Origin: Bacteroidota bacterium
GTDB lineage: Bacteria; Bacteroidota; Ignavibacteria; Kryptoniales; JAKASW01
DNA length: 64,000 bases
Direction: 5' to 3'
NCBI GenBank assembly: GCA_021812985.1
Contig: JAKAMG010000009.1
Span: forward strand, 1-64,000
Shown one piece after another: positions 3,538-4,219 of this stretch. Position numbers and translations under genes: made by a program. The notes below the pieces were generated by a model. That model had not been told where the DNA came from and searched no databases. It worked only from the letters and a program-made list of their open reading frames with translations. Each line of letters starts with the position of its first letter. Positions within the stretch are counted from its first letter, which is position 1.

Positions 3538-3577
3538 GAACCCACGACCTTGGCGCGTGTCGCGCCACGCTCTAACC
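3538..3577 (-). pseudogene. Truncated tRNA-Pro-like fragment (distal copy)
   Basis: Forty bases matching the inner part of the tRNA-like fragment at 3833-3889: D-arm end GGTTAGAGCG, the altered 17-base arm, variable loop and the start of the T-arm. It breaks off within the T-loop, after GGTTC, and the acceptor strand is lacking, so it cannot be a working tRNA. It marks the left limit of the repeat array. Confidence 0.8.
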
Positions 3578-3823
3578 GCGGCCCTTCCCAAGTCTCTCCC
3601 GCAGGTAGCGGCCTGCTCCACGCTGTTTTATCTCCATCTCCTTCTTCACAGCCTCTGCCCGCGTGGAGAACTCCTCGCTGTACACCACTTCCCATGGTAT
3701 ACCGTACCTTATGGATTTTGTTTCCCCTGAATTGTGCTCCGAAACTCGGTTGCCCAAGTCCTCCGTACTTCCCGTATAGTACCTCCCTGCCTTTCTGCTC
3801 CAGAGTATATACGTCGTGTACAT
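3572..3823 (-). CDS. GIY-YIG nuclease domain protein, distal copy
   Basis: Single-domain GIY-YIG endonuclease of 83 residues, the UPF0213/Slx1-like compact form. The GIY strand is TYILW, the YIG strand is YYTGS, the catalytic arginine lies in LGNRVSEHN and the metal-binding glutamate in EAVKKEMEI. It differs from the proximal copy at one residue (Ala for Thr in RKAGRYY). The ATG at 3823 follows an AAGAAGG ribosome-binding site that itself begins just after a tRNA-like 3' end; longer reading frames that start upstream merely translate the tRNA-like sequence. The stop TAG lies inside the next tRNA-like fragment. DNA cleavage is expected from the family; the target is unknown. Confidence 0.8.
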   Translation of the reverse strand: MYTTYILWSRKAGRYYTGSTEDLGNRVSEHNSGETKSIRYGIPWEVVYSEEFSTRAEAVKKEMEIKQRGAGRYLRERLGKGRG

Positions 3824-3832
3824 CCTTCTTTG

Positions 3833-3889
3833 TCGGGGCGGTGGGATTCGAACCCACGACCTTGGCGCGTGTCGCGCCACGCTCTAACC
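3833..3889 (-). pseudogene. tRNA-Pro-like 3' fragment with a swapped anticodon arm
   Basis: Fifty-seven bases aligned in register with tRNA-Pro. The D-arm end (GGTTAGAGCG), variable loop, T-arm, acceptor 3' strand and discriminator A are identical, but the 17-base anticodon arm is TGGCGCGACACGCGCCA instead of the CGG-bearing arm. The replacement still forms a 5-bp stem with a 7-base loop (or 7 bp with an ACA loop). No complementary acceptor 5' strand is present, so it is not a complete tRNA. Its first bases contain the stop codon of the upstream GIY-YIG gene. Confidence 0.8.
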
Positions 3890-4135
3890 GCGGCCCTTCC
3901 CAAGTCTCTCCCGCAGGTAGCGGCCTGCTCCACGCTGTTTTATCTCCATCTCCTTCTTCACAGCCTCTGCCCGCGTGGAGAACTCCTCGCTGTACACCAC
4001 TTCCCATGGTATACCGTACCTTATGGATTTTGTTTCCCCTGAATTGTGCTCCGAAACTCGGTTGCCCAAGTCCTCCGTACTTCCCGTATAGTACCTCCCT
4101 GTCTTTCTGCTCCAGAGTATATACGTCGTGTACAT
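3884..4135 (-). CDS. GIY-YIG nuclease domain protein, tRNA-proximal copy
   Basis: Eighty-three residues, a complete minimal GIY-YIG fold: TYILW and YYTGS strands, arginine in LGNRVSEHN, and glutamate in EAVKKEMEI. The ATG at 4135 is only nine bases from the 3' end of tRNA-Pro (4145), and those bases include the ribosome-binding site AAGAAGG; the gene is therefore probably transcribed with the tRNA and freed when the tRNA 3' end is processed. The stop codon TAG is shared with the D-arm of the following tRNA-like fragment. Whether it acts as a homing or repair nuclease cannot be decided from sequence. Confidence 0.85.
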   Translation of the reverse strand: MYTTYILWSRKTGRYYTGSTEDLGNRVSEHNSGETKSIRYGIPWEVVYSEEFSTRAEAVKKEMEIKQRGAGRYLRERLGKGRG

Positions 4136-4144
4136 CCTTCTTTG

Positions 4145-4219
4145 TCGGGGCGGTGGGATTCGAACCCACGACCTCTTGGTCCCGAACCAAGCGCTCTAAC
4201 CGGGCTGAGCCACGCCCCG
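4145..4219 (-). tRNA. tRNA-Pro (anticodon CGG)
   Basis: Complete cloverleaf: acceptor stem CGGGGCG paired with CGCCCCG plus discriminator A, D-arm with GGCTCAGCCCGGTTAGAGCG, anticodon arm CTTGG-TTCGGGA-CCAAG giving anticodon CGG (proline, CCG codon), variable loop AGGTC and T-arm GTGGGTTCGAATCCCAC. The CCA end is not encoded (the next bases are CAAA). It is the intact parent of the two tRNA-like fragments downstream. Confidence 0.97.

Follow-up and report, generated by a model that had tools for sequence, protein, structure and literature searches.

The window, that is, the whole stretch of 64,000 nucleotides that was analysed, carries a tRNA-Pro(CGG) gene on the minus strand, and two 312-bp units are arranged head-to-tail on the same strand 3′ of this gene. 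The features of the array and its downstream neighbour are as follows.

4144..4219, minus strand: intact tRNA-Pro(CGG), the putative landing-site gene (ARAGORN; RF00005, 69.8 bits)
3850..4161, minus strand: unit 1, 312 bp, from T-loop to T-loop, with its boundary between TTC and GAA (repeat detection; boundaries from sequence)
3884..4135, minus strand: GIY-YIG nuclease gene of unit 1, 83 codons (ORF list; PF01541)
3832..3890, minus strand: second, altered tRNA-Pro copy, unit 1 (sequence reading; ARAGORN, RF00005)
3863..3879, minus strand: hairpin TGGCGC-GACAC-GCGCCA replacing the anticodon arm, unit 1, with a perfect stem
3538..3849, minus strand: unit 2, 312 bp, one mismatch relative to unit 1, ending after GGGTTC in the T-loop
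3572..3823, minus strand: GIY-YIG nuclease gene of unit 2, 83 codons (ORF list; GIY-YIG search)
3551..3567, minus strand: identical hairpin TGGCGC-GACAC-GCGCCA, unit 2 (sequence reading)
3538..3578, minus strand: third, truncated tRNA-Pro piece, cut after GGGTTC in the T-loop
3201..3422, minus strand: YggU/DUF167 gene, downstream neighbour outside the element (PF02594; synteny)

The direct repeat, with a period of 312, spans positions 3538-4174 with 99% matches and no indels, and no other tandem array was reported by the tandem-repeat search of the 64-kb window. By similarity, the tRNA-Pro(CGG) gene is the sole CGG copy in the window genome (a single match at E ≤ 1e-12). Unit 1 consists, in order, of the tRNA 3′ end, the GIY-YIG ORF, and a hairpin-bearing tRNA piece that runs up to GTTC, and the stop codon TAG of its ORF is the TAG within the D-loop sequence GGTTAG. 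A preliminary description had claimed a tRNA-Pro(CGG) followed by two 312-bp units that differ at one base and each carry one 83-codon GIY-YIG gene. This claim held, and its coordinates were right.

The further claim that each unit contains the 3′ part of the same tRNA held only in part. The last 31 nt of the altered copy, which cover the variable loop, the T-arm, and the acceptor 3′ strand, are identical to those of the intact tRNA, and the anticodon arm is a hairpin. The copy of unit 1 begins in the D-loop, without a 5′ acceptor strand, and comprises part of the D-loop, the hairpin, the variable loop, the T-arm, and the acceptor 3′ strand; its reading as a plain tRNA 3′ fragment was rejected because of the hairpin. 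The ‘tRNA-Cys’ called by ARAGORN at 3902..3832 is this altered tRNA-Pro piece, which scored 21.4 bits with RF00005, under the cut-off. A third tRNA piece had been said to end the array, and it does so, but it is truncated and stops in the T-loop at position 3538 without the tRNA 3′ end. Both ends of the repeated unit therefore lie in the T-loop (3850-4161 and 3538-3849). The displaced tRNA 3′ end is truncated in the window and complete at other loci, and tRNA 3′ ends were too conserved to separate donor from host by divergence.

The 83-aa protein matched PF01541 (GIY-YIG) over residues 1-68 with E = 2e-14, and the conserved residues Y4, Y15, G17, R25, H29, and E61 were invariant among its relatives. 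No separate DNA-binding region beyond GIY-YIG was found in this protein by Pfam. The nearest solved structures by sequence were UPF0213-type small GIY-YIG proteins (PDB 1ZG2 and 1YWL; E = 1.6e-5 and 6e-5, respectively). Like the window protein, these are stand-alone single-domain GIY-YIG proteins; their similarity to it is low, and they are hypothetical proteins with no recorded link to tRNA genes.

The element was compared with known classes. Strict membership in the Seg type fails, since the DNA-binding region is missing; otherwise its behaviour resembles that of a homing element, which is inferred without cleavage or transposition data. One Seg-type criterion, presence/absence polymorphism at homologous sites, is met at the tRNA-Pro(CGG) sites described below. 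The layout of fungal mORFs is also met, with an intact host gene, a nuclease ORF behind it, and a displaced 3′ end downstream. The organisation of a group I intron is not met, as the tRNA is whole, uninterrupted, and upstream of the ORF. Neither is that of a Y1 (HUH) transposase with REP palindromes (RAYT/REP), PF01541 being the only family in the unit. There is no integrase gene in the 312-bp unit, whose sole gene with a family match is the GIY-YIG gene. For a phage origin, only weak and partial phage matches were obtained, the best of them less than 60% identical.

Related loci in the genome, the genus, and the phylum

A DNA search of the window genome with the 312-bp unit itself found the window locus only. 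The GIY-YIG search found eight GIY-YIG genes in this 3.5-Mb genome. Two copies lie at tRNA-Met(CAT) with hairpin-bearing Met pieces, in tandem across a scaffold gap, and one lies at tRNA-Gln(TTG) with a hairpin-bearing Gln piece. Thus, three tRNA loci (Pro, Met, and Gln) in the genome share the unit architecture. The genome has about 45 tRNA genes, and we estimated the chance of a same-strand tRNA within 250 bp of a given gene at about 0.3%.

Small GIY-YIG genes were numerous in the 12 congeners, where they fell by sequence into two kinds, class A and class B. Class A genes adjoin tRNA genes of Pro, Gln, Met, Val, Ser, Leu, Arg, and Ala at a distance of 3-130 bp, and many of these loci are only 3-13 bp from the tRNA end. 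The hairpin in the second tRNA copy breaks the anticodon arm, the T-loop, or the D-arm. The order was reversed at L023, L044, and L065, with the altered copy upstream and the intact tRNA downstream. Class B genes sit amid REP-like palindromes and not at tRNA genes. They provide an internal control, and the tRNA association is specific to class A.

The class B genes are of the GFTKKY..KKWxRKW type and were seen in the same genus at L016, L019, L021, L026, L028, L039, L046, and other loci; one example of their palindromes is GTCATTCCCG..CGGGAATGAC. At L066, L034, L076, and L077, we observed tRNA-like sequences whose arms are swapped for TCCCG..CGGGA-type hairpins, with GIY-YIG genes near them and a terminator-like hairpin between.

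When named genomes were scanned with the single window protein as the query, relatives were detected in Ignavibacteria, Cyclobacteriaceae, Flammeovirgaceae, and Chitinophagaceae, and nearly all of them lay at tRNA-Pro. Of 395 genomes of the phylum, 114 had matches to the Pro-type profile. In a phylum sample of 84 clusters picked on protein score alone, a same-strand tRNA lay within 250 bp in 68 clusters and an opposite-strand tRNA in none, and 25 clusters were tandem. Most of the other 16 were flanked by altered tRNA pieces, at contig ends, or at rnpB. The reverse arrangement, with the intact tRNA downstream, was present in this sample too. About half of the loci adjoined tRNA genes in seven genomes reached via Patescibacteria and other distant matches, among which a tRNA-Tyr locus (L214) carried hairpin-bearing pieces.

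A class A GIY-YIG ORF was apparently nested in the P3 helix of the RNase P RNA gene at L169 (G065), L170 (G174), and L205 (G076). The ORF separates the 5′ strand of the RNA, which is upstream, from the remainder downstream (RF00010, E from 1e-49 to 6e-63), and the flanks of the ORF pair as a stem of about 24 bp. The three nested ORFs form one clade with a support of 99.

Empty sites, copy number, and tRNA isotype

The tRNA-Pro(CGG) gene was recovered in 12 of the 13 genomes of the genus, with YggU directly downstream of it in nine, and this conserved neighbour was used to define the orthologous site. YggU is on the other side of the tRNA in G006, G009, and G010, which are not strict orthologous sites. 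The tRNA-Pro(CGG)-YggU site was empty in G008, G002, and G001, and it was occupied by one full unit in G011 and by two in G000. Two hairpin-bearing pieces without a nuclease were present at the tRNA-Pro(CGG) site of G012. The short nuclease remnant at the site of G003 was equalled by 1 of 500 shuffles, and the similarity of the remnant in G007 was modest (8 of 500 shuffles as good); that of G004 was not significant (110 of 500). Three tandem 133-bp internal-deletion copies lie 3′ of tRNA-Pro(CGG) in G006 (L093). The two ends of the ORF are retained together with the hairpin piece, and the middle is gone; from the sequence, we infer that these copies are a non-autonomous derivative.

Copy number also varied at a tRNA-Arg locus in two MAGs, where L055 has one unit and L059 has two. 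The difference is one whole 319-bp unit, and on either side more than 1 kb of flanking DNA is 99.9% identical, although mis-binning of that contig is possible. Tandem arrays were found in the single-contig genomes G304 (five units), G143 (three units), G247, and G199. The tRNA-Gln element was syntenic in eight congeners, and its divergence was about that of its flanks, which suggests long vertical retention at that site and possibly domestication. The dN/dS ratio of the Gln-linked copies, taken only where dS was unsaturated, was about 0.06-0.15. This purifying selection indicated that the protein is maintained.

A tree of 112 class A proteins was built on 71 alignment columns, and its deep forks were unresolved. 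The isotype label required 25 changes on this tree compared to a shuffled mean of 73, and none of 200 shuffles was as low, while the label of the host genome gave no signal (49 changes compared to 47.7 shuffled). These results indicated that class A proteins group by tRNA isotype and not by host. The Pro clade contained 27 proteins (26 Pro and 1 Ile) with a support of 98.

A second copy with a hairpin was present at almost every class A locus. In the Pro lineage, the stem TGGCGC/GCGCCA is kept across families and the loop is variable. The T-loop of the second copy was broken in 39 of 76 cases, and 26 of these 39 were broken exactly after GTTC. The other 37 kept an intact T-loop, with the altered arm elsewhere. 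T-loop cutting is not a rule for all lineages, because about half of the second copies keep this loop, and the T-loop as a universal cut site was not supported.

We also considered whether the hairpin sequence is exclusive to the Pro lineage, which was rejected, as a tRNA-Ala-like relic shares the TGGCGC stem. This relic (L003; G000, contig C9:895-969) lies in the 16S-23S spacer and was called ‘tRNA-Lys’ by ARAGORN. Its anticodon arm is TGGCGC-GTTTC-GCGCCA, and it adjoins tRNA-Ala and tRNA-Ile without a nuclease gene.

The preliminary description had proposed a minimal mobile or homing element, and had named empty orthologous tRNA-Pro sites, copies at other tRNA genes, and variable copy number as checks. 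All three were found: empty and occupied sites in the same genus, copies in the window genome and the phylum, and one versus two units between nearly identical flanks. Restriction of the unit to one locus with ordinary segmental duplication would have refuted the proposal, and this was not the case. An assembly artefact had been another worry, which is not a general one given the arrays in single-contig genomes. The claim of a homing element was thus supported, and how the element would move is inferred only. The description had overlooked the conserved hairpin, the reverse arrangement, the isotype-specific lineages, and the internal-deletion derivatives.

The homing reading, its rivals, and known systems

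We consider it likely, with a probability of about 0.75, that the 312-bp unit is a minimal freestanding GIY-YIG homing element with a tRNA gene as its landing site. The anatomy, its recurrence, the empty and occupied sites, the copy-number variation, the isotype-specific lineages, and the purifying selection were shown; cutting, homing, the repair route, and the role of the hairpin are inferred. In this view, the 83-aa nuclease would cut an unoccupied tRNA-Pro gene, and the break would be repaired from an occupied copy, whose intact tRNA and altered copy would give homology on both sides. The outcome would be an intact tRNA, a nuclease gene directly behind it, and a redundant tRNA copy with one arm replaced by a hairpin (the anticodon arm in the Pro lineage; the T-loop, T-arm, or D-arm in other lineages). 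The insertion would be tolerated at an essential gene because the intact tRNA keeps its function. Most likely, the hairpin would delete the cut site from the redundant copy with the flanking homology retained, and it may also shield the 3′ end of the mRNA; the altered arm would mark the cut or recognition site of each lineage. Tandem arrays may arise from unequal repair between tRNA repeats, and loss of the element would leave hairpin pieces or nuclease remnants.

Several points speak against homing. Isotype recognition is unexplained, since the protein lacks a DNA-binding region outside the GIY-YIG fold. Moreover, the intact tRNA at an occupied site should stay cuttable unless it is protected. 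The long vertical retention at tRNA-Gln also counts against it.

Transcriptional hitch-hiking without homing would also place a nuclease gene behind tRNA genes. Here, a small nuclease gene for DNA repair or RNA processing would have settled behind strongly transcribed tRNA genes, and the tRNA duplications and tandem arrays would be by-products of ordinary recombination between tRNA repeats. The spacing of 3-13 bp at many loci, the purifying selection, and the syntenic retention at tRNA-Gln agree with this explanation. However, it leaves unexplained the one-isotype lineages across families, the hairpin-bearing second copy at almost every locus, the reverse arrangement with the tRNA downstream, and the class A gene nested in RNase P RNA, and we regard it as unlikely. 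An RNA-level system seems more doubtful still. The nuclease would cleave a specific tRNA, and the hairpin-bearing pieces would be decoy or antitoxin RNAs whose tandem copies tune dosage, as in type III toxin-antitoxin systems. Isotype-specific lineages would fit, as would a second copy that is partly tRNA-like in shape and has lost its anticodon arm, and the pieces in G012 that persist without a nuclease. On the other hand, GIY-YIG enzymes have been characterised as DNA nucleases, SegB, which shares the habitat, acts on tRNA genes by cutting their DNA, several congeners have an unoccupied site, and class A also occurs within rnpB, so that we consider this system very improbable.

As a general explanation, ordinary segmental duplication or an assembly artefact at one tRNA gene can be virtually ruled out. 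The two units in the window differ hardly at all, and mis-assembly of a 312-bp repeat is possible in a MAG, so the exact copy number of two at the window locus is unconfirmed. Yet many genomes show the same architecture, some of them with arrays in a single-contig assembly, three tRNA loci of the window genome share it, and both empty and occupied sites exist.

The homing reading may be extended to a bolder one, toward which we lean only slightly. The elements would form a large class of chromosomal homing elements, undescribed so far, that land at structured-RNA genes, at least in Bacteroidota and Patescibacteria, with each nuclease lineage dedicated to one tRNA isotype (one to RNase P RNA), and with a hairpin-locked target mimic, tandem arrays, and non-autonomous deletion derivatives. 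If the homing reading is true, homing elements of only about 300 bp, far smaller than the usual tRNA-integrating islands, inhabit essential tRNA genes on ordinary bacterial chromosomes, which would account for the frequent small GIY-YIG genes beside tRNA genes in databases. The elements would also allow target choice at the level of the isotype to be tested in a very small nuclease.

Genomic islands that integrate at tRNA genes by tyrosine recombinases resemble the window element in leaving the tRNA intact with a 3′ fragment at the far end, but the 312-bp unit has no integrase and its fragment is hairpin-altered. REP/RAYT elements, with a small nuclease or transposase gene near palindromes, resemble the class B genes, whereas the genes of class A are not RAYTs and are found at tRNA genes. 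A Neisseria GIY-YIG nuclease acts on palindromic repeats, which was not used as evidence here. No description of tRNA-associated GIY-YIG genes in bacterial chromosomes was found in the open-access literature searched. Compared with its closest known counterparts, SegB and the fungal mORFs, the family is chromosomal, smaller, and isotype-dedicated, and it is probably undescribed.

Fungal mitochondrial mORFs restore the 3′ end of the host gene in Allomyces atp6 and in Glomus atp6, atp9, cox2, and nad3 (PMC3630166). Like the window element, they place a freestanding homing-nuclease gene in a host gene whose function is kept, with the displaced native 3′ end downstream of the nuclease ORF. Unlike it, they lie in mitochondrial protein genes, without a tRNA target or hairpin replacement, and no tandem unit arrays were reported for them in PMC3630166.

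SegB of phages T4/T6 is likewise a freestanding GIY-YIG gene among tRNA genes (PMC13096335, PMC2988022). The enzyme of phage T6 cleaves within tRNA genes, and its motif, RAWTSGAAC, is the T-loop sequence in reverse complement; it causes a 718-bp tRNA-segB unit to be amplified by recombination (PMC13096335). In both systems, a unit of tRNA and nuclease is amplified, and the second copies of the window family often break after GTTC in the T-loop, where the SegB motif lies. In contrast to SegB, the window protein has 83 aa with the GIY-YIG domain only and is chromosomal, each lineage of its family keeps one isotype, and the unit has a hairpin-altered tRNA copy. The elements lend themselves to comparison with the tRNA amplification that SegB drives in phages.
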